In this document: positions 4,162-41,609 of the stretch, in pieces
Numbering within the stretch: position 1 is the first letter of the stretch
Layout: every line of letters begins with the position of its first letter
NCBI RefSeq assembly: GCF_014930455.1
Contig: NZ_JAAIYO010000002.1
Span: 744,001 to 808,000 of the forward strand
Direction of reading: 5' to 3'
DNA from: Corallococcus soli
GTDB lineage: Bacteria > Myxococcota > Myxococcia > Myxococcales > Myxococcaceae
Length of the DNA: 64,000 bases
The notes under the pieces: generated by a model
Database searches by the model: none
Told to the model about the DNA's origin: nothing
Seen by the model: the letters and a program-made list of their open reading frames with translations, nothing else
Program-made: the position numbers and the translations under genes

Positions 4162-6552
4162 ATGACGACCCGGATCCGAAAAGTGGCGGTGCTTGGCGCT
4201 GGCGTGATGGGCAGCGGCATCGCCGCGCATCTGGCCAACTCCGGCGTTCGCGCCTTGTTGCTGGACATCGTTCCCCCCAAGGCCGCGCCGGGGGAGGACA
4301 CCGCCTCCAAGGCGTTCCGCAACAAGTTCGCGCAAGGCGCGCTGGCGAACCTGCGCAAGCAGAAGCCCAGCCCCATCGTGTCCGAGCAGGTGTTCACCGC
4401 CATCGAGGTGGGAAACCTGGAGGACGACCTCGCCCGGCTCGCGGAGTGCGACTGGATCATCGAGGTGGTGAAGGAGGACCTGTCCGTCAAGCAGGCCCTG
4501 TTCGCCAAGGTGGAGAAGCACGCGCGCAAGGACGCCATCATCAGCTCCAACACGTCCGGCCTCTCCATCGTCGGGATGACGGAGGGCCGTGGCGCGGAGT
4601 TCAAGAAGAACTTCCTCGTCACGCACTTCTTCAACCCCGTGCGCTACATGAAGCTGCTGGAGCTGGTGTCCGGCCAGCACACCGACCCGGAGGTGGTGAA
4701 GACCATCCACCGCTTCGGTGAGGAGGTGCTCGGCAAGGGCATCGTCTACGGCAAGGACACCACCAACTTCATCGCGAACCGCATTGGCGTGTACGGGATG
4801 ATGCGGACCATCTCCGAGATGTCCAAGACGGAGATGACCATCGAAGAGGTGGACAAGATCTTTGGCCCGGCGATGGGCCGCCCCAAGTCCGCCGTGTTCC
4901 GCACCGCGGACATCGTGGGCCTGGACACGTTCACCCACGTCGCGAAGAACTGTTACGACACGCTCACGCACGACGAGGAGCGCGACGTCTTCGCCATCCC
5001 CGACTTCCTCCAGAAGATGGTGGAGAAGGGGATGCTGGGCGACAAGAGCGGCGGCGGCTTCTACAAGAAGGACAAGTCCGCGGGCGGCAAGGACATCCTC
5101 GCGTTGGATCTGAAGTCGCTGGAGTACCGGCCCCAGGCCAAGGTGCGCTTCGACTCGCTGGGCGCCGCGAAGGACATCGAGGACGTCCGTGAGCGCGTCG
5201 CGTCCGTGATGAACGCGAAGGACAAGGCGGGCACGTTCGCCGAGCGCGTCACCCTGGACGTGCTGGCCTACTCCAGCCGCCGCATCCCGGAGATCGCGGA
5301 CGACGTGGTCAACGTGGACCGGGGCGTGCGCTGGGGCTTCGGCTGGGACCTGGGTCCCTTCGAAGTCTGGGACGCGTACGGCGTGCAGAAGGGCGTGGAG
5401 CGCATGAAGGCGCTGGGCCTCAAGCCCGCCGCCTGGGTGGAGGAGATGCTGGCCAAGGGCCGCACGTCCTTCTACGGCGTGAAGGACGGCCGTGACACCT
5501 ACTGGGACATCCCGTCCAGGTCGGAGAAGACCGTCGTCGAGAACGCGCGCACGTTCCGCGTGGAGTACCTGAAGCGCGGCAACAAGAAGATCACCGGCAA
5601 CGACAGCGCCACGCTCTGGGACATGGGCGACGGCGCGACGCTGCTGGAGTTCCACTCCAAGATGAACTCCATCGACGATGACATCATCGCGATGATGAAC
5701 ACCGCGCTCGACGAGACGGAGAAGAACCACAAGGGCCTCGTCATCGGCAACGACGGGTCCAACTTCTCCGCCGGCGCGAACATCATGGCCATGCTGATGG
5801 CGGCCAAGAGCGAGGACTTCGACTCCATCCGCGCGATGGCGTCCAAGTTCCAGCAGGCCAACCAGCGCATGCGCTACAGCCCCGTGCCCGTCGTGACGGC
5901 GCCCTTCAACCTCACGCTGGGCGGCGGCGCGGAGGTCACCATGGGTGGCAACGCGGTGCAGGCGAGCGCGGAGCTGTACATGGGCCTCGTGGAGGTCGGC
6001 GTCGGCCTCATCCCCGGCGGCGGCGGCACCATGATGCTGCTGCGCAACGTGTTCGGCGCGTACGCGGCGGACAAGGACTTCGACTCGCTGCCCTTCCTCA
6101 AGAAGGTGTTCCTCGCCATCGGCACCGCGAAGGTGGCGACGAGCGCGGAAGAGGCGCGCGAGTTCGGCTTCCTGTCGGCCCAGGACGGCATCACGGGCAA
6201 CCGTGACTTCCTGCTGTCGGACGCGAAGTCGCGGGTGCTGGGCCTGGCGAATGGCGGCTTCCGCCCGCCGCGCCCCACGCGCTTCCGGCTGCCGGGCCCC
6301 AACGGCGCGGCCACCATCGACATGATGTTGTACGACATGCAGCTCAACAACCAGATCAGCGCCCACGACCGGAAGATCGCCCAGAAGCTGGCGCGCGTGC
6401 TGTCCGGCGGCGACACCAGCCCCTCCGTGCTCGTGAGCGAGGACCGGCTGCTGGAGCTGGAGATGGAAGCGTTCCTGAGCCTCATCGGTGAGGAGAAGAC
6501 CCAGGACCGCATGATGTTCATGCTCGAGAAGGGCAAGCCGCTGCGCAACTAG
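4162..6552 (+). CDS. fadN: 3-hydroxyacyl-CoA dehydrogenase/enoyl-CoA hydratase fusion (FadN type)
   Basis: This 796-residue bifunctional enzyme carries out the hydration and NAD-dependent oxidation steps of fatty-acid beta-oxidation. The N-terminal Rossmann motif GAGVMGSG is at residues 12-19, with the catalytic His155 in THFFNP. The enoyl-CoA hydratase half is C-terminal (residues about 500-796), with SAGANI, the oxyanion segment LGGGAEV and GLVEVGVGLIPGGGG. Dehydrogenase first and hydratase last is the order of Bacillus FadN, opposite to E. coli FadB, and the terminal KGKPLRN is also FadN-like. The ATG at 4162 follows AAGGGA. The thiolase gene begins 81 bp downstream and completes the cycle. 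Confidence 0.93.
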   Translation: MTTRIRKVAVLGAGVMGSGIAAHLANSGVRALLLDIVPPKAAPGEDTASKAFRNKFAQGALANLRKQKPSPIVSEQVFTAIEVGNLEDDLARLAECDWIIEVVKEDLSVKQALFAKVEKHARKDAIISSNTSGLSIVGMTEGRGAEFKKNFLVTHFFNPVRYMKLLELVSGQHTDPEVVKTIHRFGEEVLGKGIVYGKDTTNFIANRIGVYGMMRTISEMSKTEMTIEEVDKIFGPAMGRPKSAVFRTADIVGLDTFTHVAKNCYDTLTHDEERDVFAIPDFLQKMVEKGMLGDKSGGGFYKKDKSAGGKDILALDLKSLEYRPQAKVRFDSLGAAKDIEDVRERVASVMNAKDKAGTFAERVTLDVLAYSSRRIPEIADDVVNVDRGVRWGFGWDLGPFEVWDAYGVQKGVERMKALGLKPAAWVEEMLAKGRTSFYGVKDGRDTYWDIPSRSEKTVVENARTFRVEYLKRGNKKITGNDSATLWDMGDGATLLEFHSKMNSIDDDIIAMMNTALDETEKNHKGLVIGNDGSNFSAGANIMAMLMAAKSEDFDSIRAMASKFQQANQRMRYSPVPVVTAPFNLTLGGGAEVTMGGNAVQASAELYMGLVEVGVGLIPGGGGTMMLLRNVFGAYAADKDFDSLPFLKKVFLAIGTAKVATSAEEAREFGFLSAQDGITGNRDFLLSDAKSRVLGLANGGFRPPRPTRFRLPGPNGAATIDMMLYDMQLNNQISAHDRKIAQKLARVLSGGDTSPSVLVSEDRLLELEMEAFLSLIGEEKTQDRMMFMLEKGKPLRN

Positions 6553-6632
6553 CGCGAGGCGTTTACCCATGGGTTGCCAGAATCGAAATCCGAAGCACGC
6601 CCGGACGGTGTCCGGGCAGGGAGACACCTGAC

Positions 6633-7805
6633 ATGTCCAGCCGAGTCGTGATTGCCAGCGCGGTGCGCACCCCCTTCACCCGCGCGCACAAGGGTGAGTT
6701 CAAGGACACGCGTCCGGATACGCTCGCGGCCCTTGCCATCAAGGAAGCCGTCGCCCAGGTCCCCGGCCTGAAGGCGTCGGACGTGGAAGACGTCATCATG
6801 GGCTGCGCCATGCCGGAGGCGGAGCAGGGCATGAACGTCGCCCGCAACGCCAGCCTGCTCGCGGGCCTGCCGGACACCGTTCCGGGCATGACCATCAACC
6901 GCTTCTGCTCCTCCGGCGTGCAGTCCATGGCGCAGGCGGCGCAGGGCATCAAGTCCGGGATGATGCAGGTGGCCATCGCCGGTGGCACCGAGTCCATGAC
7001 CATGGTGCCCATGGGCGGCAACAAGGTCTCCGCCAACCCGGAGATCATGGAGAAGCTGCCGGAGGTCTACACCTCCATGGGCGCCACGGCGGAGAACATC
7101 GCCTCGCGCTACAGCGTCACCCGCGAGGACGCGGACAAGTTCGCCGCGGAGAGCCAGCGTCGGGCGGCCACCGCGCGCGAGCAGGGCAAGCTCAAGGATG
7201 AGATCTTCCCCGTCACCACGACGGTGTACGACGAGGACGGCGTCGCCAGGCAGGTGACCGTGACCGTGGACACCATCCTGCGTCCGGAGACGACGGTGGA
7301 GGGCCTGTCCAAGCTGCGCCCGGCGTTCAACGCCAAGGGCGTGGTGACGGCGGGCAACGCCTCTCCGCTGACGGACGGCGCGGCCGCCGCGGTCATCATG
7401 AGCGAGGAGAAGGCGAAGGAGCTCAACGTCAAGGCGCTGGGCTACTTCGTGGACTACGTGGTCGCCGGCGTGCCGCCGGAGATCATGGGCGTGGGTCCGG
7501 TGCCCGCCATCCGCAAGCTCCTGGAGCGCAACAAGCTGAAGGTGGAGGACATCTCCGTCTTCGAGCTCAACGAGGCCTTCGCGGCGCAGGCGCTGCACTG
7601 CATCCGTGAGCTGGGCATCCCGCTGGACAAGGTGAACCCCAACGGCGGCGCCATCGCCCTGGGCCACCCGCTGGGCGTCTCCGGCGCGCGCATGGTGGCC
7701 ACCATCCTGCGCGAGCTGAAGCGCCGCGACGGCCGCTACGGCGTCGTCAGCATGTGCATCGGCGGCGGCATGGGCGCCGCGGCGCTCGTGGAACTCGCGA
7801 AGTAA
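6633..7805 (+). CDS. fadA: Acetyl-CoA acyltransferase (3-ketoacyl-CoA thiolase)
   Basis: The 390-residue thiolase cleaves 3-ketoacyl-CoA to acetyl-CoA and a shortened acyl-CoA, the last beta-oxidation step. The active-site residues are all present: nucleophile Cys92 in NRFCSSG, His345 in GGAIALGHPLG and Cys375 in CIGGGMGAA, plus NEAFAAQ. Length is normal for the family. GGGAGAC lies 6-7 bases before the ATG. It follows fadN in the same direction and probably shares its transcript, which ends at the hairpin at 7820-7847. A biosynthetic acetoacetyl-CoA role is possible, but the pairing with fadN argues for degradation. Confidence 0.93.
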   Translation: MSSRVVIASAVRTPFTRAHKGEFKDTRPDTLAALAIKEAVAQVPGLKASDVEDVIMGCAMPEAEQGMNVARNASLLAGLPDTVPGMTINRFCSSGVQSMAQAAQGIKSGMMQVAIAGGTESMTMVPMGGNKVSANPEIMEKLPEVYTSMGATAENIASRYSVTREDADKFAAESQRRAATAREQGKLKDEIFPVTTTVYDEDGVARQVTVTVDTILRPETTVEGLSKLRPAFNAKGVVTAGNASPLTDGAAAAVIMSEEKAKELNVKALGYFVDYVVAGVPPEIMGVGPVPAIRKLLERNKLKVEDISVFELNEAFAAQALHCIRELGIPLDKVNPNGGAIALGHPLGVSGARMVATILRELKRRDGRYGVVSMCIGGGMGAAALVELAK

Positions 7806-27581: not shown

Positions 27582-28652
27582 CTACGGGTAGCAGGCCGCC
27601 TGACGCAGGCCGGTGTCCTCGTCGAAGCCGAGCGCGACGTTGAAGTTCTGCAGCGCCTGCCCGGCCATGCCCTTCACCAGGTTGTCCAGCGCGGCCATCA
27701 CCGCCACGGAGCGGCCCTTGGTGGCCACGGAGATGTCGCAGAAGTTGCTGCCGGTGACGGCCGCGACGCGCGGCGTGCCCTCCACGATGCGCACGAACTT
27801 CGAGCCCTCGTAGTAGCGGCGGTACTTCTCCGTCAGCGACTGCGTCACCACCGCGCCGCCGTGCTCCGGCCACTCGAACTGCACGGTGGCGAAGATGCCG
27901 CGCACCATGGGCGCCGAGTGCGGCACGAAGGCCAGCCGGTGCCGGGACGCCCCGTGCGCCACCAGCATCACCTCCACCTCCGCCTCGTGCTGGTGCTCCA
28001 GCGGCTTGTACGCGCGGAAGTCGTGCGCGCGCGTCGGGTGGTGCGTGCCCTCACCGGGCAGCGAGCCGGAGCCGGACGAGCCCGTCACGCCCGACACGGC
28101 CAGCAGCCCCAGCCCCGGCGTGGCCGCGATGGGCAGGAGCGCCAGCTGCACCGCCGTGGCGAAGCAGCCCGGGTTGGCGATGCGCTTCGCCGTCTTCACG
28201 GCGTCCCGCTTCCACTCGGTGAGGCCGTAGGTGAACGTGCCCAGCAGCTCCGGCGCGGGGTGCGGCCGGCCGTAGGCGCCCGCGTAGCGCCCCGGGTGGT
28301 CCAGGCGGAAGTCGGACGACAGGTCCACCAGCAGCATCCGGTCCGTGAGGCCGGCGTCCGCCCACTGCTTCTCCAGCCCGGCGAACTGCGACGCCAGCTC
28401 CCCGTGGCCCAGCGCGCTGAAGACCACCGGGCGCGCCGAGTCCGAAAGCCAGCGCCAGTCCGGCTCCGCCTCGAAGCGGCCGTCCACCAGCCCCCGCAGG
28501 TGCGGGTGCACCTTGTGGATGGGCGACCCGGCATGGTGCCGGGACACCACGCGGATGCCGGCCACGCCGGGGTGGCCGGACAAGAGTCGCAACAGCTCGC
28601 CCCCGCCGAAACCGGAGGCCCCCAGGATGTAGATGTGCGCAGGCGTCGTCAT
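27582..28652 (-). CDS. argC: N-acyl-gamma-glutamyl-phosphate reductase
   Basis: The 356-residue reductase makes N-acyl-glutamate semialdehyde from the acyl phosphate using NADPH. The nucleotide-binding start is ILGASGFGGGELLRLL. The catalytic Cys163 lies in NPGCFATA. The downstream HQH (in LEHQHEAEV) and the PHSAPMVRGIF segment carry the remaining active-site residues. It is the last gene of the arginine operon. Its ATG overlaps the stop of the P-loop gene by four bases (ATGA), so translation of the two is coupled. Whether it uses acetyl or succinyl intermediates is open (see findings). Confidence 0.93.
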   Translation of the reverse strand: MTTPAHIYILGASGFGGGELLRLLSGHPGVAGIRVVSRHHAGSPIHKVHPHLRGLVDGRFEAEPDWRWLSDSARPVVFSALGHGELASQFAGLEKQWADAGLTDRMLLVDLSSDFRLDHPGRYAGAYGRPHPAPELLGTFTYGLTEWKRDAVKTAKRIANPGCFATAVQLALLPIAATPGLGLLAVSGVTGSSGSGSLPGEGTHHPTRAHDFRAYKPLEHQHEAEVEVMLVAHGASRHRLAFVPHSAPMVRGIFATVQFEWPEHGGAVVTQSLTEKYRRYYEGSKFVRIVEGTPRVAAVTGSNFCDISVATKGRSVAVMAALDNLVKGMAGQALQNFNVALGFDEDTGLRQAACYP

Positions 28653-29710
28653 GACTTCCTCCCCGCGCCCAGCTTCGGCGCGAGCTTCTCCACGATGAGG
28701 TTTCCCAGGGCGTTTGGATCCGCGCGCGCGTTGCGGGCCGGCAGGCCCACCACCTGCTCCACGAAGCGCACGCCCACCGCGTTGTCCGTCGCGGGCCCGG
28801 CGACCATGTCCATCTCGATGCCGTACACCTCACGCAGGTGCCGCACGCCGCCCGCCGCGCCAACAGGGTCATTGGCGCAGAGGATGAACGCGCCGCCCAG
28901 GGCCTTGAGCTCCGGGTCCGCCAGGATGGCCTGCACGCCGTATTCGCCCATGATGCCGTCGCCCGTCTCCGCGACGATGACGTCCACGTCCTGGGCCGCC
29001 ATCTCCGAGAACACGATGCGCGCCACCCTGGACGCCGTGCGCGCCCCGGTGCAGACGATGCCCGCGTCGGTGAAGTCCATCACCACGTCCGCGCCGCTGT
29101 CCTGCATGGCCAGGGTGTCGCGCATCAGCGACACGCCGGTGAGCTTCGCGCCGCCCACGCGGTAGCCCGCCTGGGACAGCTTGCGCACCACGACGCTGGC
29201 CGCGTACGTCTTGCCCGCGTTCATGCAGGTGCCCACCACGTAGACCACCGGGCACGTCACCGCCTTGGACGTGCCCTTGAGCGCGCCCGCGGAGACGTGC
29301 GCGTGCACACCCGCGCGGGACTGGAACTCCGGGAACGTCAACACCTGGCCCAGCACCTCCGCCTCGAAGGGCGCGCCCACGCCGGGGTTGTGCGACGTGC
29401 ACTTCCCGATGACGCCGCCCATGTTGAGGATGTGGAGCCGGTCGCCCACCGTGACGGACGTGGGCACCACGCCCTCGTAGCCGTGCAGGGCGTTGCGGTG
29501 GCCCAGCGCGCCCACGACGATGTCGCCCGCGTGCAGCGTGACGAGCCGGCCGTTCACGTCCTCCAGCTGGTTGTAGACGGTCTTCTCCCCGTGGATGCGG
29601 ACCGCGATGACCGCGCCCTCCTCGCACTTCACCTCGTCCGCGAGGTGCACCGTGCGGCCCACCTGGAGGTTGCGAGTGACACTGCCCACCTTGTCGACCT
29701 GGATCTTCAT
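28649..29710 (-). CDS. P-loop protein of unknown function embedded in the arginine operon
   Basis: The 353-residue protein has two parts. Residues 1-130 are rich in beta strands (KCEEGAVIAVRIHGEKTVYNQL). Residues about 135-353 form a P-loop NTPase with VVGTCMNAGKT, then GAKLTGVSLMRD, DVIVAETGDGIMGEYG and ILCANDPVGAAGG. The pattern recalls dethiobiotin synthetase (BioD) and DUF1611, a family that includes a D-glutamate N-acetyltransferase (DgcN). It begins 1 bp after argG and overlaps argC by four bases, so it belongs to the operon. No acyl-glutamate synthase gene is present in the cluster, so a part in forming or handling the acylated precursor is an attractive but unproven idea. Confidence 0.6.
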   Translation of the reverse strand: MKIQVDKVGSVTRNLQVGRTVHLADEVKCEEGAVIAVRIHGEKTVYNQLEDVNGRLVTLHAGDIVVGALGHRNALHGYEGVVPTSVTVGDRLHILNMGGVIGKCTSHNPGVGAPFEAEVLGQVLTFPEFQSRAGVHAHVSAGALKGTSKAVTCPVVYVVGTCMNAGKTYAASVVVRKLSQAGYRVGGAKLTGVSLMRDTLAMQDSGADVVMDFTDAGIVCTGARTASRVARIVFSEMAAQDVDVIVAETGDGIMGEYGVQAILADPELKALGGAFILCANDPVGAAGGVRHLREVYGIEMDMVAGPATDNAVGVRFVEQVVGLPARNARADPNALGNLIVEKLAPKLGAGRKS

Positions 29711-29711
29711 G

Positions 29712-30899
29712 TCACTTGGCTTTCTGCGAGAGCATCTGCGCGACACCGTAGAGTTTGGCGAACCCCGCCGCTTCCGTCCCCGTCCACAACACGTTGGCCT
29801 CTCCGTACGTCGCCACCTTCGCGTCCATCAGCGAGTGCGGCGAACGCACGCCTTCCACGACGTGGATGCGCGGGGTGAGCACCAGCTTCACCTCGCCCGT
29901 CACGCGCTCCTGCGAGGAGGCGAGGAACGCCTCCAGGTCCTTCACCACCGGGTCGAAGAAGTGCCCCTCGTGGAGCAGCGACCCGTACAGGTTGCCCAGC
30001 GTCTCCTTCCAGAAGAGCTGCTTGCCCGACAGCACCAGCTTCTCCAGCTCGCGGTGCGACGCGATGAGCAGGTGCGCCGCGGGCGCCTCGAAGCCCACGC
30101 GGCCCTTGATGCCCAGGATGGTGTCGCCCAGGTGCACGCCCCGGCCGATGCCGTACGTGCGCCCCAGCGCGTTCAGCTTCTCCACCAGCGCCACGGCCGA
30201 CAGCGCCTGGCCGTCCAGCGCCACCGGCACGCCCTTCTCGTACGACACCACCACGGGCAGCGGCTTCAGGTCGGAGGGGATGACGCCACCGGGGAAGGCC
30301 GCCTCGGGCAGGGTGCTCCACGAGTCCAGCGTCTCGCTGCCGCCCACGGACGTGCCCCACATGCCCTCGTTGATGGAATACGCGCCCAGCTTCGCGGGCA
30401 GGTGCACGCCCCGCTCCGCCAGGTAGTCCAGCTCCTGCTTCCGGGACAGCGCCAGGTCGCGGATGGGGGTGATGAGCTGGAGCTGGGGCGCGAGCGTGCG
30501 GAAGGCCACGTCGAAGCGCACCTGATCATTGCCCGCGCCGGTGCTGCCGTGGGCCACGGCCTGCACGCCCAGCTTCTCCGCCATGCGCACGGCCTCCACG
30601 GCCTGGCAGGCGCGCTCGGCGGAGACGCTCAGCGGGTAGACCTGGCCGCGCAGCACGTTGCCGGCGATGAGGAAGCGCAGGTAGCCCTGGAAGAGGGTGT
30701 CGCGCGCGTCCACCGTGTGGTGCGCCACCGCGCCCAGCTTCAGCGCCAGGGCCTGGATGCGCTCCAACTGCTCGGGCGGAAAGCCGCCCGTGTCCACGGT
30801 GACGGTGGTGACGTCCCAGCCCTGCTCGCGCAGATACACCGTGCAGAACGCGGTATCGAGTCCACCGGAGAACGCCAGCACCACGGACTTCTTGCTCAT
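29712..30899 (-). CDS. argG: Argininosuccinate synthase
   Basis: The 395-residue ligase joins citrulline and aspartate with ATP. The PP-loop is FSGGLDTAF (Ala in place of the common final Ser). AHGSTGAGNDQVRF is the aspartate/citrulline site. The segments YSINEGMWGTSVGG and GIGRGVHLGDTILGIKGRVGFEA match the Bacteroidetes form of ArgG as I remember it rather than the usual proteobacterial one. GGAG lies about 10 bases before the ATG. It follows argH by 38 bp and is adjacent to the P-loop gene. Confidence 0.93.
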   Translation of the reverse strand: MSKKSVVLAFSGGLDTAFCTVYLREQGWDVTTVTVDTGGFPPEQLERIQALALKLGAVAHHTVDARDTLFQGYLRFLIAGNVLRGQVYPLSVSAERACQAVEAVRMAEKLGVQAVAHGSTGAGNDQVRFDVAFRTLAPQLQLITPIRDLALSRKQELDYLAERGVHLPAKLGAYSINEGMWGTSVGGSETLDSWSTLPEAAFPGGVIPSDLKPLPVVVSYEKGVPVALDGQALSAVALVEKLNALGRTYGIGRGVHLGDTILGIKGRVGFEAPAAHLLIASHRELEKLVLSGKQLFWKETLGNLYGSLLHEGHFFDPVVKDLEAFLASSQERVTGEVKLVLTPRIHVVEGVRSPHSLMDAKVATYGEANVLWTGTEAAGFAKLYGVAQMLSQKAK

Positions 30900-30937: not shown

Positions 30938-32287
30938 TCAGGCGGCCCAGACGCGCTCGGCGGCCTGGGTCTGCTGCGCGTGGGTGCGCGTGAGCCACTC
31001 GCGCGCGTCCGCCAGTTCCTCGCGCGCGGTGGCGAGGCCCAGGTTGCCGGCGCCACCCAGGTGGGTGGCCGTCAGCGCGCCGCGGTCCGGCTGGAAGGTG
31101 CCGTCGTTCAGCTGGCGGCCCACCTCCCGGTACGCGTCGCGGAAGGGCAGGCCCTGCGCCACCAGGGCGTAGGCATGGTGCGCGGCGTAGAGCGAGTCGT
31201 CGCACGCCGCGCGGGCCTTGTCCGCGTTCACCTTCAGCGCGGGCACCAGCCGCGCCAGCACCTCCAGGAGCGCCTTCGTGCTGGCCAGCGCCTGGAAGGT
31301 GGGGCGCTTCAGCAACTGGAAGTCACGGTGGTAGCTGGACGGAAGCCCACCCGCCACCGCCTCCACCTGGTGCGCCAGGCCCCGGAGCTCGCGGCAGCGG
31401 CCTCGCGCCAGCTCCACGACGTCCGGGTTCTTCTTCTGGGGCATGATGGACGAGCCCGTGGTGAAGGCATCCGGCAGGGCCAGGAAGCCGAACTCGTCCA
31501 TGCTGTAGAGCTGCACGTCCCACAGCCACTTCTCCAGAGTGCCCGCCACCGAGCACGCCCAGGTGAGCAGCGCCGCCTCATGCCGCCCCCGACTGTCCTG
31601 CGCGTCGATGGGGCTGCGTTGAACCCGACTGAAACCGAGGAGCCGCGCGACATATTCACGGTCGATGGGGAGCGGCACGCCGAAGCCCGCCGCCGCGCCC
31701 AGCGGACAGCGATCAATCCGGCCCCACACGCCCTTGAGCGCCTCCAGCTCCTCCAGCAGCCCTTCGGCGAACGCCATGCCCCACAGCCCGAAGGTGGACG
31801 GCATCGCGCGGCGCAGGTGCGTGTAGCCGGGCAGGGGCAGGTCCGCGTGGCCTTCCGCGAAGTCGAGGAACGTCCCGGCCAGCTCCGCCGTGCGCGCGCC
31901 CAGGGCGAGCAACTCCTCGCGCAGGTACAGGCGCAGGGCGAGCAGCACCTGATCGTTGCGCGAGCGCGCCAAGTGGATGCGCTTGCCGGCTTCACCCGTG
32001 CGCTCCACGAGCGCGGCCTCCAGCGCGGTGTGGCCGTCCTCCTGCTCCGGGCGGATGACGAAGCGGCCCGCGCGCGCCTCGGCGTGCAGCGCCTTCAGCG
32101 CGCCGACGAGCGACGTGGCGGCCTCCGGCGCGAGCAGGCCCACGTGCGCGAGCATGCGCGCGTGCGCGGCGCTGCCCAGCGCGTCGTGCGGCACGAGCGA
32201 CAGGTCCACCACGGGGTCGTCGCCCACGGTGAAGGCGTGGATGGCCGCGTCCAGCGGCTGGCCCTTGCCCCACAATGTCTCAGCCAC
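30938..32287 (-). CDS. argH: Argininosuccinate lyase
   Basis: The lyase (449 residues from the GTG at 32287) releases arginine and fumarate, the last step of the pathway. The superfamily signature GSSIMPQKKNPD is intact, as are HLARSRNDQV and PGYTHLRRAMPSSFGLW-like segments. The GTG is preferred over an ATG at 32305 because GAGGAGG lies 6-7 bases before it. Either choice overlaps the end of argE, so the two are translationally coupled. The LW..FTVGDDPVVDL start and overall pattern again resemble the Bacteroidetes branch. Confidence 0.92.
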   Translation of the reverse strand: MAETLWGKGQPLDAAIHAFTVGDDPVVDLSLVPHDALGSAAHARMLAHVGLLAPEAATSLVGALKALHAEARAGRFVIRPEQEDGHTALEAALVERTGEAGKRIHLARSRNDQVLLALRLYLREELLALGARTAELAGTFLDFAEGHADLPLPGYTHLRRAMPSTFGLWGMAFAEGLLEELEALKGVWGRIDRCPLGAAAGFGVPLPIDREYVARLLGFSRVQRSPIDAQDSRGRHEAALLTWACSVAGTLEKWLWDVQLYSMDEFGFLALPDAFTTGSSIMPQKKNPDVVELARGRCRELRGLAHQVEAVAGGLPSSYHRDFQLLKRPTFQALASTKALLEVLARLVPALKVNADKARAACDDSLYAAHHAYALVAQGLPFRDAYREVGRQLNDGTFQPDRGALTATHLGGAGNLGLATAREELADAREWLTRTHAQQTQAAERVWAA

Positions 32288-33335
32288 GCGCCACCTCCTC
32301 GGCATAGCCGTGCAGCAGTCGTCGATAGAACGCGAGCCCCGCCTCCAGCTCCGCGCGCGTGAGGTACTCGTTCGCCTGGTGGCTGCGCAGCGTGTCGCCC
32401 GGGCCCACCTTCACCGCCGGCACGTCGCCCAGGAACGCCCAGTCGGACGTGGTGCTGGAGCCCACCGTGCCCTGTCCCGCCGCCGCCACCGCCGCGCGCA
32501 CCAGGGGGTGCGTGTCCTGCGTGCCCTTGGGCAGGTAGCGCGCCGAGTGCACCACCACCTCGCTCTCCAGCGCCGCGCCCACGTCCTGGGCCACCTTCGC
32601 GTGGTCCATGCCCGGCGTGGTGCGCAGGTCCACGAAGAACTCGCACCGGTCCGGCACCTGGTTGCGCGCCAGGCCCCCCGACACCTGCGTCACCTGCGCC
32701 CGCGCCTCACCCAGCAGCGGGTGCGCGGGGAAGCGGAGCGCGGACACGGCCTGGATGTCCCGGGCCGCCTTGAGGATGGCGTTGTCCAGTCCACCCGCGT
32801 GCGCGACGTGGCCGGACCTCCCGTGCGCGATGCAGCGCAGCAGCAGCATGCCCCGCTGCGCCGTGCAGGGCTTGAGCGACGTGGGCTCGCCCACGATGGC
32901 GGCGTCCAGCGGCCCCAGCGTGGGGAGCAGGGGCCCCAGGCCCTTGCCGCCCGTCTCCTCCTCGGCGGTGAGCGCGAAGACGTGCTCCACACCCTCCGGC
33001 GCGCCTTCTTCCAGGAGCGCCTTCGCGGTGAGGAGCATGGCGGTGACGCAGCCCTTAGCGTCGTTGGCGCCCAGGCCGTAGAGGGTGTCGTCCTTCCACA
33101 CGGCCTCATGGGGCTCGGTGGTCCACCCGGCGCACGGCTTCACCGTGTCCAGGTGCGAGTTGACGAGCAGGCGCTTCGGGCCGCTGCCCACGCTGAACCA
33201 GACGTTGTGGCCCTGGCGGTGCACGCGGGCACCCCAGGACTCGGCCTGGCCGGCCACGAGGTCCGCGATGCGGGCCTCGTCACCGGAGACGCTGGGCGTC
33301 GCGACCAGCGCGGTGAGCAGCTCGGTGGGGTTCAA
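32280..33335 (-). CDS. argE: N-acyl-ornithine/N-acyl-citrulline deacylase (M20 family)
   Basis: This 351-residue zinc hydrolase removes the acyl group from the pathway intermediate. Metal ligands and catalytic residues appear as NSHLDTV, GANDAKG, TAEEETGG and GEPT, with a dimerisation domain between (about residues 160-270). The context of an acyl-ornithine carbamoyltransferase suggests acyl-citrulline as the substrate, as in Xanthomonas. It starts with TTG at 33335, overlapping the argB stop as TTGA, so it is translationally coupled to argB. DapE-like desuccinylation is possible. Confidence 0.88.
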   Translation of the reverse strand: MNPTELLTALVATPSVSGDEARIADLVAGQAESWGARVHRQGHNVWFSVGSGPKRLLVNSHLDTVKPCAGWTTEPHEAVWKDDTLYGLGANDAKGCVTAMLLTAKALLEEGAPEGVEHVFALTAEEETGGKGLGPLLPTLGPLDAAIVGEPTSLKPCTAQRGMLLLRCIAHGRSGHVAHAGGLDNAILKAARDIQAVSALRFPAHPLLGEARAQVTQVSGGLARNQVPDRCEFFVDLRTTPGMDHAKVAQDVGAALESEVVVHSARYLPKGTQDTHPLVRAAVAAAGQGTVGSSTTSDWAFLGDVPAVKVGPGDTLRSHQANEYLTRAELEAGLAFYRRLLHGYAEEVARG

Positions 33336-34258
33336 CCCCTGGCCTCACCGTGCTTCACCGGGTGCTCGCGCACGACCATGGTCCCGCTGCCCTCGTTGGT
33401 GAAGACCTCCTCCAGGAGCGCGTCGGACTGCTTGCCGCTGACCAGGTGCACGCTGCCCACGCCGCCCACGAGCGCGTGACGCATGGCGTGCGCCTTGGGC
33501 CGCATGCCGCCCGTGAGCCGGCCTTCGGCCTCCAGGGAGGCCAGGTCCGACAGCGTGGCGAGCGAGATGACGGACGACGGGTCGGAGACGTCCTTCAGGA
33601 GTCCCGGCACCTCCACCAGGAAGAAGAGCTTTTCGGCATGCAGCGCCGCCGCGATGGCCGCCGCCACGGTGTCCGCGTTGGTGTTGTAGACGGCGCCGTC
33701 CTGGCCTCCGGACAGCGGGGCGATGACGGGCACGTAGTCCGCGGAGCGCAGGTGCTCCACGACGCGCGTGTCCACCGACTCGATGTCGCCCACGAGGCCG
33801 TAGTCCACCATGCGCCCCTGCGTCTCACCGGGCTCGGTGACCATGACGGGCGGGCGGCGGCGCGCCTTGATGAGGCCCGCGTCCACGCCGGACAGGCCCA
33901 CGGCGGGCACGCCCGCGGCCTGGAGGTCCGCCAGCAGGTCCGTGTGCAGCTTGCCCGCGAGCACCATCTTCGCCGCGTCCAGCACCGGCGCGGAGGTGAT
34001 GCGGCGGCCGGCCGCCTTCTCGATGGGCAGGTGCAGCGCGTCGCAGAGCGCGTCCAGCTCCGGGCCGCCGCCGTGCACCACCACGGGGCGGATGGAGAAG
34101 GCCCACAGCAGGGCGATCTGTTCGCACGCCGTCTTGCGCGTGCGCGGGTCGCTCAGCACGGCGCCGCCCAGCTTCACCACGAACGTCTTGCTGCGGAACT
34201 GCTTCACGTACTTCGCCGCGTTGCGGAGTGCGGCGTACGGGTCGGGAGACAAGGGCAC
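33332..34258 (-). CDS. argB: N-acyl-glutamate kinase
   Basis: The 308-residue kinase phosphorylates N-acyl-glutamate, normally the committed and feedback-regulated step. Motifs are VVKLGGAVL, VHGGGPELDAL, GRRIT, VDYGLVGDIESVD and NTNADTV. NTNADT and GRRIT differ from the common NINADT and GLRVT and are shared with Bacteroidetes ArgB sequences I recall. The N-terminus lacks the longer helix that confers arginine inhibition in many bacteria, apart from about 22 residues before the first strand. It starts with GTG, 58 bp after argF'. Confidence 0.9.
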   Translation of the reverse strand: MPLSPDPYAALRNAAKYVKQFRSKTFVVKLGGAVLSDPRTRKTACEQIALLWAFSIRPVVVHGGGPELDALCDALHLPIEKAAGRRITSAPVLDAAKMVLAGKLHTDLLADLQAAGVPAVGLSGVDAGLIKARRRPPVMVTEPGETQGRMVDYGLVGDIESVDTRVVEHLRSADYVPVIAPLSGGQDGAVYNTNADTVAAAIAAALHAEKLFFLVEVPGLLKDVSDPSSVISLATLSDLASLEAEGRLTGGMRPKAHAMRHALVGGVGSVHLVSGKQSDALLEEVFTNEGSGTMVVREHPVKHGEARG

Positions 34259-34316: not shown

Positions 34317-35321
34317 TCAGCCGCCGCGCATCCAGGCCAGCAGGGCGCGCTGCACGTGGTAGCGGTTGCCCGCCTCGTCCACGACGCGGCTGCTCGCGTG
34401 ATCCAGCACGTCGTCCGCGACCTCCACGTTGCGCCGCACCGGCAGGCAGTGCAGGAACGCGGCGTCCTTGGAGGCCTTCGCCATGTGCCGCCGCGTGGGC
34501 ATCCACCCGGAGTACGACGCGAGCAGCGCCGCCACGTCCGCGGGCGAGTTCGCCGTCGCCGCGGTGGGACCCCAGGACTTCGCGTACACCGCGCGGCTGC
34601 CGACCAGCGCCTCGTCCTGGTCGTGCGTGTAGGTGATGCTGCCGCCGGTGGCCTTCGCGTACGCCTCCGCCTCCGCGCGCACGGCGGGGTGCAGGTCGAA
34701 GCCCGGAGGATGCGCCACGCGCACCTCGCAGCCCGCCGCCGCCGCGGACAGCAGGAACGAGTTGGGCACCGCCTTGGGCAGCGGCTTGATGTGCGGCGCC
34801 CAGGTGAGCGTCACCGGGAGCTTCTTCGTCGTGCCGAACGTCTCACGCAGCGTCAGCGCGTCCGCCAGGCCCTGGCACGGGTGCTCGCGCGCGGACTCCA
34901 TGCTCACCACCGGCACGGTGGCCCACTTGCGAAAGGCGTTGATGACGGGGTCCGCCTCGTCCTCCTCGTCGCCGCCCCCCTGGGAGAAGGTGCGGATGCC
35001 CAGCATGTCCACGAAGCGCGACAGCACCGGCGAGGCTTCCTTGATGTGCTCCGCCCGGTCCGTGTTCATCACCGCGCCCGGGCGGTCCTCCAGCTTCCAC
35101 ACGCCAGAGCCCACGTCGAGCACGATGGCGTGCCCACCCGCGCGCAGCATCACCGCCTCGAACGAGGTGCGCGTGCGCAGCGACGGATTGAAGAACACCA
35201 TGCCCAGGATCTTCCCGGGAAACAGCGCCCCGGGGTCCTTCTGCTTCCACGCGGCCGCCTGCGAGAGGACCGCCTCGACGCCTTCCGGCCCCAGGTCCTG
35301 GATGCGGGTGACATGCTTCAT
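34317..35321 (-). CDS. argF': N-acyl-ornithine carbamoyltransferase (AOTCase/SOTCase type)
   Basis: The 334-residue enzyme transfers a carbamoyl group to an N-acylated ornithine, giving N-acyl-citrulline. Carbamoyl-phosphate motif FFNPSLRTRTS is at residues 43-53, HPCQGLADAL in the middle and HCLPVRRNV near the C-terminus. Long stretches match the Xanthomonas N-acetylornithine enzyme, not ordinary ornithine carbamoyltransferase. At the position of Xanthomonas Glu92, which selects the acetyl substrate, this protein has Ala90 (NTDRAEHI); at that of carboxylated Lys302 it has Glu. Loss of Glu92 shifts the known enzyme to N-succinylornithine. It is the first gene of the operon, read away from argR. 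Confidence 0.88.
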   Translation of the reverse strand: MKHVTRIQDLGPEGVEAVLSQAAAWKQKDPGALFPGKILGMVFFNPSLRTRTSFEAVMLRAGGHAIVLDVGSGVWKLEDRPGAVMNTDRAEHIKEASPVLSRFVDMLGIRTFSQGGGDEEDEADPVINAFRKWATVPVVSMESAREHPCQGLADALTLRETFGTTKKLPVTLTWAPHIKPLPKAVPNSFLLSAAAAGCEVRVAHPPGFDLHPAVRAEAEAYAKATGGSITYTHDQDEALVGSRAVYAKSWGPTAATANSPADVAALLASYSGWMPTRRHMAKASKDAAFLHCLPVRRNVEVADDVLDHASSRVVDEAGNRYHVQRALLAWMRGG

Positions 35322-35360: not shown

Positions 35361-35484
35361 TCACTGAATATTCACAAAAATGCGTGCATATTCAGCAAGG
35401 AGGCGCGGATATTATGCAGAACGGCGCAGCGCGCAAGAACATTCTTGGGGATTTTCATGCGACTTGCGTGCGTATTCATGCGCA
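35361..35484. promoter_or_regulatory. Divergent argF'-argR control region with paired ARG-box-like repeats
   Basis: Two operator-like pairs are visible in this AT-rich gap. Near argF', TGAATATTCA (35365-35374) and TGCATATTCA (35385-35394) have centres 20 bp apart. Near argR, TTCATGCG occurs at 35454-35461 and 35475-35482, exactly 21 bp apart. ArgR binds tandem boxes about two helical turns apart and recognises TGAAT/ATTCA half-sites, so both the operon and argR itself are probably repressed. The binding is inferred from pattern and context. Confidence 0.6.
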
Positions 35485-35500: not shown

Positions 35501-35920
35501 ATGAACCTGGACGAGGCCATCCTTCAGCTCATCTCCCGGCAGGAGATCACCGATCAGGCCGTGCTCCAGGAGCTGCTGGAGGCGGCGGGGCACGCGCCCA
35601 GCCAGTCCACGCTGTCGCGGCGGCTCAAGAAGTTGAGCGTGCAGAAGGTGAACGGTCGCTATCAGCGCACGGAGGCGCCGCCGGTGGTCGCGGCCATCGC
35701 GCCGCGCGTGGCCATCATCGAGGCGCCGCCCAACATGCTGGTGCTGAAGACGGCGCCCGGCTACGCGCAGATCTTCGGGGTGGCGTTGGACCGTGAGGAG
35801 GTGGCGGGCCTGGCGGGCACGGTGGCGGGCGACGACACCATCTTCATCGCGGTGAGGGATCCGTCGCTGCTCCAGGCGGTGCGCACGGCGGTGGAGCAGC
35901 TCATCCTGCGAGGCCCGTGA
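35501..35920 (+). CDS. argR: Arginine repressor
   Basis: The 139-residue hexameric regulator represses arginine biosynthesis when arginine binds. The N-terminal winged helix (residues 1-60) includes SQSTLSRRLKKL, the recognition helix. The C-terminal oligomerisation domain has the arginine-binding signature GTVAGDDTIFI (about 105-115). It is slightly shorter than the usual 150 residues but complete. It diverges from the arg operon, and the shared gap holds its likely operators. Its last 20 bases overlap the 3' end of the opposite gene. Confidence 0.95.
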   Translation: MNLDEAILQLISRQEITDQAVLQELLEAAGHAPSQSTLSRRLKKLSVQKVNGRYQRTEAPPVVAAIAPRVAIIEAPPNMLVLKTAPGYAQIFGVALDREEVAGLAGTVAGDDTIFIAVRDPSLLQAVRTAVEQLILRGP

Positions 35921-38471: not shown

Positions 38472-41400
38472 ATGTCCGAGTCCGCGTCCCACCTGGAGGA
38501 GGTCGAGCTGCTCGACCTCGCGGACGGCATCCCCTCACCGGCCCTGCGCTCGCGCGCGGAAGCGCACCTGGACGCGTGCCCGTCCTGCCGGGACGCCCTG
38601 GCGGAGTTCCTGCGCGTGCGTGCCGCGCCCGCGCCCGACGTGCACGCTGCGCGCACGGTGCTGCTCGTGTCGGAGTCTCCGGGCGCGCGCCTGTCCGCCT
38701 CGGGAATGCCGCTCATCGCGCAGGGCACACTGCTGGGCCGCTACGTGGTGCTGGAGCGGCTGGGCGTGGGGGGGATGGGCGTCGTCCACGCGGCCTATGA
38801 CCCGAGCCTCGACCGTCGCATCGGCCTGAAGCTCTTGCGCACGCTGCCCGAGGCGGGCGGCGCGGGGGGCATGACGGAGCGGCTGCTGCGCGAGGCCCAG
38901 GCCGCCGCGCGCACGCGCCACCCGCACGTCGTCACCGTGCACGACGTGGGCACGTTCGGCAGCGTGGTCTTCATCGCGATGGAGCTGGTGGAGGGCGGCA
39001 CGCTGCGCCAGCACCTGCGGGCCTCCGGGCGCCCGTGGCGCGACGTGGTGCGGCTGTACCTCCAGGCGGGCAGGGGGCTCGCTGCGGCGCACGCGGCGGG
39101 CGTCGTGCACCGGGACTTCAAGCCGGACAACGTGCTCGTGGACAAGGAGGGGCGCGCCCGGGTGACGGACTTCGGGCTGGCGCGCGTGGAGTCCGCGACC
39201 GCCACGCCAGCGCCTTCAGGAGACACGCCCCGCATCGGCGCGGGCACGGGTGACATCGCGTCCCCGAGCCTTCCGGCGGTGGCCACCACCGTCGCGGGCA
39301 CGCCCGGCTACATCGCTCCGGAGGTGCTCGCGGGAGCCCCCGCGGACGCGCGCTCGGATCAATACGCCTTCTGCGTGTCGCTGTACGAAGGGCTGCACGG
39401 CCAGAAGCCGCCGTCCCCGGAGCAGGGCGGCCTGGCGAACCGGGGCGCCGTGCCCCGCGCCGTGCACGCGCTGCTCGTGCGGGGCCTGTCCCCGGAGCCG
39501 GGCGCGCGGCACCCCTCCATGCCGGCCCTGCTCGACGCGCTGGAGCGCGCCGCCTTCCCCGCGTTCAGCAAGAAGGTGGCGGTCGCCGGGGTGGGCGCGG
39601 GCCTGCTCGCCGTCGCGGCCACCGTGTTCGTGGTGATGGGCACGCCGACCTGCGCGGAGGAGCTGCCGCGGCTCGTGGGCGTCTGGGACGCGGACAGGAA
39701 GGCCGCGCTGCTCAAGGCCTTCCAGGCCACGGGAGCGCCGGGCGCGGTGGCCGCGCACGAGGCCGCCTCACGCGCGCTGGATGCGTATGCCGCGTCCTGG
39801 CACGACAGCCGCCGTCAGGCCTGCGAGGCCACGCGGGGACGTGGCAACCAGTCCGAGGCGGTGATGGACCTGCGGATGAACTGCCTGGAGCGCCGGCGCC
39901 GCGAGCTGGGGGCGCTCACGGACGTGCTGCTCACCGCGAACCGGGACGGCGTCGCGAGCGCCCCGGAGACGGCGCAGGCCCTGAGCCCCCTGTCCCGCTG
40001 CGCGGACGTGGAGGCGCTCTCGCAGCCGGTGCCCCCGCCGGAGCGCCCTGAAGTCGCGGCGCGCATGAAGGCCGCCTACGCGAAGCTCGACGAGGCGCGC
40101 GCCCGCCTGCGCGCGGACCGGTGGCAGGAGGCCGTGGACCGCGTGGGCCCCGTCGTCACCGAGGCGGAGGCGCTCGGCTACAAGCCGCTCCTGGGCGAGG
40201 CCCTGCTCGTCGAAGGCGAGGCGCGCGCCATGCTGCGCGACGAGGCGGCCACCGCGACGCTGCGCCGCGCGATGCTGGCGTCGCTCGCGGGCCGCGACGA
40301 CCTGCACGCCACCGAGGCCGTGGTGCAGCAGGTCTACGTTGACGCTGAGGTCGCCCAGCGTCCGGAGCAGGCGAAGCTCCACGCCGAGCAGGCCCAGGCC
40401 CTGCTGGAGCGCGCGGGAGGCAACGCGGAGCTGGAGGCGCGGCTGCTGGAGTCCCAGGCCAGCTCGCTCGTGCAGCAGGCCCGCGCCGCCGAGGCGTTGC
40501 CCCTCCTCCAGCGGTCCCAGTCCCTCCAGGAGCGGCTGTACGGCAAGGACTCCCCGCGGCTGGCCCGGGGGCTGCTGCTGCTGTCGTCGGCCCTGCGGAA
40601 GATGGGGCGGAGCGAAGAGGCGCTCGTGCACAACCAGCGCACGCAGGCCCTGCTCGAAGCGGCCTATGGCCCGGACCATCCCAAGGTGGCGATGGTGCTC
40701 AACAACCGGGGCAGTACGCTGATGGAGCTGCGCCGCTACACGGAGGCGCGCGACTGCTTCCAGCAGGGCCTCGCCCGCTACGAGCGCATGTTCGGCCCGG
40801 GGCAGCCGGTGCGCTACGTCCTCGGCCTGCGCGCGAACCTGGGCGCGGTGGTCTTCACCCTGGGTCTCTACGCGGAGGCGGAGCGGCAGCTGCGCGAGGC
40901 CCTGACTTTGTCCCAGGCGCAATTCCCTCCAGGCTCCACCTACCGCGTGCGCACGGGCAACAACCTGGCCCTGGCGATCATCAACCAGGGCCGCATGGCG
41001 GAGGCGCTCACGCTGCTCGACGCGCTGGAGGCGGAGCGGGAGGCGGCGACCCTGGATGGGCGCAAGGATCCCATCTTCGCCCAGCCGCCGCTGAACGCGA
41101 CGGAGGTCCACCTGCGCATGGGCCGGCCGGACCTGGCCGTCGCGTCCGCGAAGCGCGCGGTGGCCATCCTCCGGGACATGGGCGCGGAGGCCGACCTGGG
41201 CTACGCCCTGCGCAACCTGGCCAGTACGCTCGCACGGGCAGGGCAGCTCTCCGAGGGCTGGCGCGCGGCCCAGGAGGCCCTGGCCCTGCACCAGAAGCTC
41301 GCGGGGGCGACCGCGCCGCCGTACCCCGAACTGGGGCAGACGCTGGGAGAGCTGGCCCTGGAGCGCGGCGACGCGGACGGTGCCTGCGGGTGGCTGGGCG

Positions 41401-41609
41401 AGGCCCTGGCGCAGTGGGAGAAGACGGAGGCGCCGCCCCTGGAGCTGGCCGTCATCCGCTTCACCCTGGCGCTCGCCCTGCGCAAGGCCCACCGCGAGCC
41501 GGAGCGGGCCCGGGCCCTGGTGACCGCCGCCCGCGACGCCGTGCTCCCCACCCCGGAGCCCCGCGTGCTGCGGCTGTCCGAACTGGAGGCCTTCCTGCGC
41601 GAGCGGTGA
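38472..41609 (+). CDS. Zinc-finger/Ser-Thr kinase/TPR protein
   Basis: The 1045-residue protein begins with an anti-sigma-type zinc finger (His32, Cys36, Cys39 in HLDACPSCRD). The kinase domain (about residues 85-355) has GVGGMGVVH, HRD at 213-215 in HRDFKPDN, DFGLARV and TPGYIAPEVL, so it should be active. One transmembrane helix (about 367-390) follows. The C-terminal 650 residues are helical repeats of the TPR type, outside the membrane. It is 10 bp from the sigma-like gene. The likely arrangement is that an external or envelope signal on the TPR part alters the inner kinase and zinc finger, which control the partner sigma. Confidence 0.88.
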   Translation: MSESASHLEEVELLDLADGIPSPALRSRAEAHLDACPSCRDALAEFLRVRAAPAPDVHAARTVLLVSESPGARLSASGMPLIAQGTLLGRYVVLERLGVGGMGVVHAAYDPSLDRRIGLKLLRTLPEAGGAGGMTERLLREAQAAARTRHPHVVTVHDVGTFGSVVFIAMELVEGGTLRQHLRASGRPWRDVVRLYLQAGRGLAAAHAAGVVHRDFKPDNVLVDKEGRARVTDFGLARVESATATPAPSGDTPRIGAGTGDIASPSLPAVATTVAGTPGYIAPEVLAGAPADARSDQYAFCVSLYEGLHGQKPPSPEQGGLANRGAVPRAVHALLVRGLSPEPGARHPSMPALLDALERAAFPAFSKKVAVAGVGAGLLAVAATVFVVMGTPTCAEELPRLVGVWDADRKAALLKAFQATGAPGAVAAHEAASRALDAYAASWHDSRRQACEATRGRGNQSEAVMDLRMNCLERRRRELGALTDVLLTANRDGVASAPETAQALSPLSRCADVEALSQPVPPPERPEVAARMKAAYAKLDEARARLRADRWQEAVDRVGPVVTEAEALGYKPLLGEALLVEGEARAMLRDEAATATLRRAMLASLAGRDDLHATEAVVQQVYVDAEVAQRPEQAKLHAEQAQALLERAGGNAELEARLLESQASSLVQQARAAEALPLLQRSQSLQERLYGKDSPRLARGLLLLSSALRKMGRSEEALVHNQRTQALLEAAYGPDHPKVAMVLNNRGSTLMELRRYTEARDCFQQGLARYERMFGPGQPVRYVLGLRANLGAVVFTLGLYAEAERQLREALTLSQAQFPPGSTYRVRTGNNLALAIINQGRMAEALTLLDALEAEREAATLDGRKDPIFAQPPLNATEVHLRMGRPDLAVASAKRAVAILRDMGAEADLGYALRNLASTLARAGQLSEGWRAAQEALALHQKLAGATAPPYPELGQTLGELALERGDADGACGWLGEALAQWEKTEAPPLELAVIRFTLALALRKAHREPERARALVTAARDAVLPTPEPRVLRLSELEAFLRER

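Follow-up and report, generated by a model that had tools for sequence, protein, structure and literature searches.

The carbamoyltransferase encoded at 34317..35321 on the minus strand of the window (the whole 64,000-nucleotide stretch of Corallococcus soli DNA that was analysed) is predicted to be an N-succinyl-L-ornithine carbamoyltransferase (SOTCase), acting in arginine synthesis by way of succinylated intermediates. Judged from the family model, the PDB matches and the residue alignment, the probability of this assignment is about 80%. The NCBIfam name of the protein, N-acetylornithine carbamoyltransferase (AOTCase), is probably wrong, and, like Bacteroides, C. soli probably makes arginine via succinyl-tagged rather than acetyl-tagged intermediates. 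Most probably it has a SOTCase of the usual kind, found outside the Bacteroidetes; the worthwhile lead is a P-loop protein of the same operon, which may be the missing first enzyme of the pathway.

Diagnostic residues of the carbamoyltransferase

The gene is a real open reading frame of 334 amino acids with an ATG start. Its product scores 445.9 bits with the NCBIfam AOTCase model NF003384 (cut-off 288) and stays below the cut-offs of the ornithine carbamoyltransferase (ArgF) models TIGR00658 (168 bits, cut-off 280.85) and NF001986 (203.2 bits, cut-off 306). The full-length alignment with the Xanthomonas AOTCase that the first-pass annotation had made by eye is borne out: the identity to the X. 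campestris enzyme is 41%, and the alignment has no gaps around the residue that selects between acetyl and succinyl substrates. Xanthomonas Trp77, Glu144, His180, Lys182, Lys252 and Arg298 are all conserved. The marks of the knotted AOTCase/SOTCase group are also present, namely the proline-rich loop HIKPLPKAVP and Trp75 of the 80s loop.

At the selector, Xanthomonas Glu92 is replaced by Ala90 (codon 35052..35054, minus strand, computed from the start of the reading frame), and at the third diagnostic position the carboxylated Lys302 is replaced by Glu300 (34422..34424, minus strand). Both replacements had been noticed at first pass and are upheld by the alignment. The second diagnostic position, which had gone unmentioned, also differs, Asn185 being replaced by Pro182 (34776..34778, minus strand). 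An alignment placing Glu at the selector was looked for, and the residue there is Ala. Chance or misalignment at this position is ruled out by the gap-free surroundings and by the top PDB match, 3l02, a Xanthomonas chain having Ala where the wild type has Glu92. The second match, 3m5c, is a Xanthomonas chain with Glu at 302. In the same search the Xanthomonas AOTCase chains score higher (240-243 bits) than the Bacteroides SOTCase (199.9 bits over residues 1-321).

A 2015 review (PMC4581275) separates AOTCase from SOTCase by Glu92, Asn185 and Lys302, whose SOTCase equivalents are A/S/P/V/Q, P and V/I/E, respectively. Ala90, Pro182 and Glu300 all fall within the SOTCase range, and the protein departs from the AOTCase residues at each position although its NF003384 score exceeds the cut-off. 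According to GapMind (PMC7311316), a selector residue of S, P, A or V causes a preference for the succinyl substrate. Both sources support the earlier suggestion that Ala points towards N-succinylornithine. With a small residue at position 90 the Glu favouring the acetyl substrate would be gone, leaving space for the carboxylate of the succinyl group, whose predicted contacts are His177, Lys179 and Arg296. These occupy the positions taken as H176, R178 and R278 of the B. fragilis SOTCase (residues from PMC4581275, with a presumed pairing of Lys179 and Arg178), and all three residues are identical in the Xanthomonas AOTCase.

A scan of named genomes confirmed 562 stretches, of which the best 80 were used as relatives. 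Those at 97-99% identity among these 80 are from Corallococcus. The triad A-P-E is the commonest (22 loci), followed by E-N-K (21), V-P-E (12) and twelve rarer kinds, in counts that lean to A and E because one of the two scan patterns required A or E as the selector residue. In the 59 non-E-N-K loci of this best 80 of 562, the selector is Ala in 28, the second site is Pro in 58 and the third site is E, V or I in all 59; Thr and Ile occur at the selector in one locus each and lie outside the published list. All 21 E-N-K loci of the same best 80 have arg neighbours, usually in the order carbamoyltransferase, argG, argE, argB, argC, argH.

A quick tree was calculated from 92 rows (the best 80 of 562 loci, the window sequence, Xanthomonas and ten further sequences, with fifteen near-copies or non-group rows dropped). 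A single branch with an SH-aLRT value of 100 splits E-N-K (28 rows) from the other triads (64 rows). Three deeper Myxococcota loci (L107-L109) have the mixed triads V-A-K, V-A-K and V-P-K in operons with the P-loop gene. They keep Lys together with Val at the selector, showing that the three diagnostic positions do not always change together, and the residues suggest that change at the third position can come later than at the other two. The E-N-K and L107-L109 branches join in a place where, as the tree program warned, long branches meet, and this join may be false.

Five Myxococcota loci (L098-L102) encode carbamoyltransferases close to the AOTCase cut-off, which is exceeded in four of the five genomes. 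They are T-P-E by alignment and lack the AOTCase/SOTCase Trp and His, and neither arg neighbours nor a P-loop gene were found in the stretches fetched. They were left out of the SOTCase count and are possibly an undescribed transcarbamylase group.

The arginine operon and its deacylase

The operon runs away from a divergent argR-type repressor gene (35501..35920, plus strand; PF02863 and PF01316 over the gathering score) in the order carbamoyltransferase, argB, M20 deacylase, argH, argG, P-loop protein, argC, all on the minus strand. The argB product (33332..34258) is a single-domain N-acylglutamate kinase of 308 amino acids, which scores 204.8 bits with TIGR00761, over its cut-off, and has plain acetylglutamate kinases as its best PDB matches. 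Argininosuccinate lyase (argH, 30938..32305), argininosuccinate synthase (argG, 29712..30899) and N-acylglutamyl-phosphate reductase (argC, 27582..28652) are over the cut-offs of TIGR00838, TIGR00032 and TIGR01850, respectively. An argD-type transaminase over its cut-off lies on another contig of the genome.

The gap between argR and the operon contains an ARG-box-like inverted repeat, CTGAATATTCAC / GTGCATATTCAG, found by pattern search at 35364..35395 (unstranded), and a third ARG-box-like half-site at 35469-35478. The pattern TGNRTATTCA, itself derived from these sites, occurs at three sites in the 64-kb window, one of them palindromic, giving 4 matches against 0.06 expected. Similar sites are present in 10 of 11 Myxococcaceae loci when a somewhat wider pattern, used without a chance control, is applied. 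Beyond argR, at 38472-41609 of the window, there is a reading frame of 1045 amino acids whose product, judged by eye, looks like a serine/threonine kinase that includes a repeat region.

A search of the genome with PF00185 found two genes, the carbamoyltransferase of the window and PyrB, and no ornithine carbamoyltransferase. If the strain makes arginine, the window enzyme must therefore serve its synthesis, the only other carbamoyltransferase found being PyrB. The pathway would proceed from N-succinylglutamate to N-succinylornithine and N-succinylcitrulline, followed by desuccinylation to citrulline. Its kinase, reductase, desuccinylase, ArgG and ArgH would be supplied by the neighbouring genes, and argD by a gene elsewhere in the genome. 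We infer all substrates of this scheme, as well as the acyl donor. In M. xanthus an arginine cluster (MXAN_5104-5111 or 5105-5110) is up during predation according to two transcriptome studies; from its size and content it is presumably the same operon.

The M20 deacylase (32280..33335, minus strand) is a predicted N-succinylcitrulline desuccinylase. Its best PDB match, 3ct9, scores 200.8 bits, far above 7rsf (72.4 bits) and the acetylcitrulline deacetylase 2f7v (69.5 bits), and the protein is below every NCBIfam cut-off among the 25 of 46 matched models listed. The 3ct9 chain is presumably BT3549 of B. thetaiotaomicron, and 7rsf is taken to be E. coli ArgE. BT3549 is given as a candidate succinylcitrulline desuccinylase by GapMind (PMC7311316). 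In PMC11270798, His182 and Tyr330 of E. coli ArgE are named as ArgE marks, with M. xanthus ArgE, having Tyr and Phe, as the sole exception at both positions. The window deacylase has Met and Thr there (by eye, assuming a three-residue tag in 7rsf), so that the 1998 M. xanthus gene may differ from the operon gene.

The classification of the carbamoyltransferase as an AOTCase, which would imply an acetylated pathway as in Xanthomonas, is unlikely. It accords with the passing of the equivalog model NF003384, with the greater full-length similarity to the Xanthomonas AOTCase than to the Bacteroides SOTCase, and with the acetylornithinase cited for M. xanthus in PMC1382215. For the same species, PMC1865377 cites a linear pathway that is fed by NAGS and has no ornithine acetyltransferase. 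Together these two citations form the chief objection from the literature to a fully succinylated pathway; the cited lack of ornithine acetyltransferase, for its part, agrees with the absence of a detectable ArgJ from the C. soli genome. The weight of the family model is reduced by the fact that NF003384 fails to tell acetyl-type and succinyl-type enzymes apart: non-E-N-K, SOTCase-type proteins are also well over its cut-off. Furthermore, all three discriminating positions hold residues of the SOTCase kind, and the bifunctional NAGS-kinase of the Xanthomonas type is missing, the 308-residue argB product being a plain kinase.

The first-pass annotation had combined Ala90 and Glu300 into a third active-site variant, which might be a relaxed enzyme with more than one acceptable acyl group, or an enzyme suited to another acylornithine. 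The open pocket left by Ala would suit such an enzyme, and the occurrence of Val, Thr and Ile at the selector of relatives suggests that this position is loosely constrained. The proposal is nevertheless rejected as very improbable, because A-P-E lies inside the SOTCase list of PMC4581275 and is frequent among relatives (22 of the best 80 of 562 loci), while nothing in the operon hints at another acyl donor. By the published rule A-P-E is an ordinary SOTCase signature, as far as residues can assign it, and a third kind of active site need not be assumed. The enzyme probably belongs to a known class and has been mislabelled, and the annotation of the whole operon could be changed from acetyl to succinyl.

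The P-loop protein as a candidate first enzyme

The gene between argG and argC (28649..29710, minus strand) encodes a DUF1611-like P-loop protein, which from its fold, co-occurrence and operon context is a candidate N-succinylglutamate synthase. By alignment, residues 160-168 form the Walker A motif GTCMNAGKT (29207..29233, minus strand), of which G160, M163, G166, K167 and T168 are invariant in 35 aligned relatives. No Pfam or NCBIfam family is over its cut-off. The closest Pfam family, DUF1611 (PF07755), scores 22.6 bits against a gathering score of 25 and matches 31 of the 35 family members at E values up to 1; at E up to 0.001 the protein matches MobB-type and DUF1611 P-loop models only. 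It has no match to the known N-acylglutamate synthase families ArgA and ArgJ. Nothing was confirmed for the protein in a scan of viral contigs.

A search of the PDB with the single sequence gave no match, and a profile search gave dethiobiotin synthetases only (E 0.069 and 0.079). The structure modelled from the alignment of 35 relatives has a pLDDT of 94.4. Its C-terminal domain superimposes on the DUF1611 proteins 2g0t (Z 17.1, 2.6 Å, 172 residues) and 2obn (Z 15.2, 3.0 Å, 177 residues) and on DgcN, 7xrj (Z 14.9, 3.2 Å, 181 residues), which is called an N-acetyltransferase in its PDB title. DgcN acetylates D-glutamate. CTP synthases, dethiobiotin synthetases (BioD) and SRP GTPases score about as high as DgcN, and SRP GTPases and BioD are ranked first by Foldseek, so that an acyltransferase cannot be named from the fold alone. 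A beta domain makes up the N-terminal 149 residues (pLDDT 93.8 when modelled alone); for this domain Foldseek found nothing under E 0.001 and the best Z score was 2.9, a missing match that does not prove a new fold.

The genome was searched for other enzymes of the first step. Neither ArgJ nor a classical ArgA was found, the one ArgA match being the argB kinase (123.1 bits, cut-off 202.85), and NF005840, which is taken to be the model of a short GNAT synthase, reached 24.5 bits against a cut-off of 154. A classical ArgA is over its cut-off in 1 of 146 Myxococcota genomes, one without the P-loop gene. In the Bacteroidetes the first step is assigned to the GNAT-family protein ArgA2/BT3761 in PMC9026213; the P-loop protein would be a different solution unless such a GNAT is also present in the genome. 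Viral contigs were scanned for a carbamoyltransferase locus of the Bacteroides type, with no match. Literature searches, largely without subscription journals, found no work linking DUF1611 with arginine, none on succinylornithine in Myxococcus among the matches listed, and no myxobacterial subject under succinylglutamate synthase, succinylcitrulline, COG3367 or succinylornithine carbamoyltransferase.

The P-loop gene occurs in 46 of the 49 non-E-N-K loci with at least two arg neighbours and in 0 of the 21 E-N-K loci (best 80 of 562), the P-loop profile having been built from these same loci. The three misses are at contig ends (L035 and L051, and L055 with a fragment of 56.3 bits). Ten other non-E-N-K loci of this best 80 of 562, with fewer than two arg neighbours, have no P-loop gene nearby. 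Because the E-N-K split is one branch of the tree, the link between the P-loop gene and the triad counts as one event.

Among 146 Myxococcota genomes, 50 carry a strong P-loop match (>400 bits), 56 carry ArgJ and 0 carry both (Fisher p 1.8e-14, which ignores kinship); 44 of the 50 belong to one family, and the counts are to be read as correlations among related genomes. One further genome (G019), outside the 50, has a weak P-loop match of 132 bits together with ArgJ. In the family of the window itself the P-loop gene is present in 44 of 65 genomes; of the 21 genomes that lack it, 19 have ArgJ. Ten of the 58 Myxococcota genomes over the AOTCase cut-off are without the P-loop gene: six are strong matches to the model, all E-N-K, and four have the T-P-E proteins without Trp and His that were set aside as another group.

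The second phylum surveyed was that of L014 (Holophagaceae): in 149 genomes the P-loop gene (at least 200 bits) is found in 36, ArgJ in 47 and both in 0 (Fisher p 1.7e-7). Seven genomes have weak P-loop matches (138-174 bits), one of which (G212, 166 bits) has ArgJ. The P-loop gene is present in 30 of 34 genomes over the AOTCase cut-off. The remaining four are an E-N-K locus with a long argB (L129), a locus at a contig end (L132) and two real exceptions in Acidobacteriota (L130, L131), which have a SOTCase-type operon with no P-loop gene detected. Between the SOTCase-type gene and argB of L130 lies a reading frame of 182 residues (6393-6938, minus strand) with no Pfam or NCBIfam match, which may be a further alternative first enzyme. 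Among the genomes that contain 48 of the named loci, ArgJ is absent from 35 of 36 P-loop carriers, the exception (L046) being a metagenome bin. Many of the surveyed genomes are such bins, which makes absences less sure than presences.

In five further Acidobacteriota loci (L133-L137) the P-loop gene adjoins argC, with argB close by, in genomes that have no carbamoyltransferase over the AOTCase cut-off; the reading frame between argC and argB is an argD-type transaminase in the two of the five that were tested. The P-loop gene is thus found here with the acylglutamate half of the pathway, which points to step one. Divergent relatives (L141-L146, 137-174 bits) lie outside arg operons; two of them (L143, L145) are beside an M20 deacylase, and L146 is a second P-loop copy in a strong carrier genome.

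It is possible, if somewhat doubtful, that the P-loop protein is an accessory, such as a regulator, a chaperone-like NTPase or an ATP-dependent ligase acting on another intermediate, and that the first enzyme is a GNAT encoded elsewhere. The complete Walker A motif and the fold common to BioD, CTP synthase and SRP GTPases would suit such a role, as would the missing P-loop gene in two SOTCase-type operons and the divergent relatives outside arg operons. Against this, ArgJ is absent from the strong carriers of two phyla (0/50 and 0/36), the P-loop gene stays by argC and argB where the carbamoyltransferase is gone, and searches of the genome for ArgJ, ArgA and one short GNAT model found none of them. 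ArgJ-free strong carriers, the rarity of ArgA, the adjacency to argC and argB and the fold shared with DgcN make glutamate acylation the simplest reading. The P-loop protein most likely acylates L-glutamate in the first step, and its proposed product is N-succinylglutamate. On balance, a tentative preference is given to the broader proposal that its family represents a novel class of N-acylglutamate synthase, non-orthologous to the known ones, which makes N-succinyl-L-glutamate for arginine synthesis in Myxococcaceae, Holophagaceae, Gemmatimonadota, Planctomycetota and others. Given that BioD and CTP synthase share this fold, the enzyme may even be an ATP-dependent succinate-glutamate ligase rather than one using succinyl-CoA.

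Should the P-loop protein act first in the pathway, it provides a candidate for a step for which no recognised enzyme was found in the genome. It would be another independent solution for protecting glutamate in arginine synthesis, and the succinylated arginine pathway would reach well beyond the Bacteroidetes.

Comparison with known systems

The carbamoyltransferase resembles the B. fragilis SOTCase (PDB 1js1, 2fg6, 2g7m) in signature class under the rule of PMC4581275, in the proline-rich loop and in its role in an arg operon; it differs in its low score of 199.9 bits and in having Lys179 where Arg178 is placed by the presumed pairing. With the X. campestris AOTCase (3kzc; mutants 3l02 and 3m5c) it shares the fold family, the substrate-binding residues and 41% identity, whereas Glu92, Asn185 and Lys302 of that enzyme are Ala, Pro and Glu here. 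In the 21 E-N-K loci (best 80 of 562) argB is distant from that of the window (75-93 bits) and the P-loop gene is missing; argB is long (445-658 amino acids from stop to stop) in the four E-N-K loci for which its length is available. According to PMC1865377, Xanthomonas has a bifunctional NAGS-kinase, whereas the argB product of the window is a plain kinase.

The operon is similar to the succinylated pathway of the Bacteroidetes, as described for GapMind (PMC7311316) and ArgA2/ArgF3 (PMC9026213), in having a SOTCase-type carbamoyltransferase, an argB-type kinase and an M20 deacylase of the desuccinylase type. The first enzyme there is the GNAT-family ArgA2/BT3761, whose place may be filled here by the P-loop protein. 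The latter has the C-terminal P-loop fold of the DUF1611 proteins DgcN (7xrj), TM0796 (2g0t) and Ava_3511 (2obn), with Z scores of 14.9 to 17.1 over 172-181 residues. Unlike these, it is below the PF07755 gathering score and carries an N-terminal beta domain without a clear PDB match. It also differs from DgcN in context, being encoded in an arg operon, whereas DgcN belongs to D-glutamate catabolism (the DgcN-DgcA pathway).
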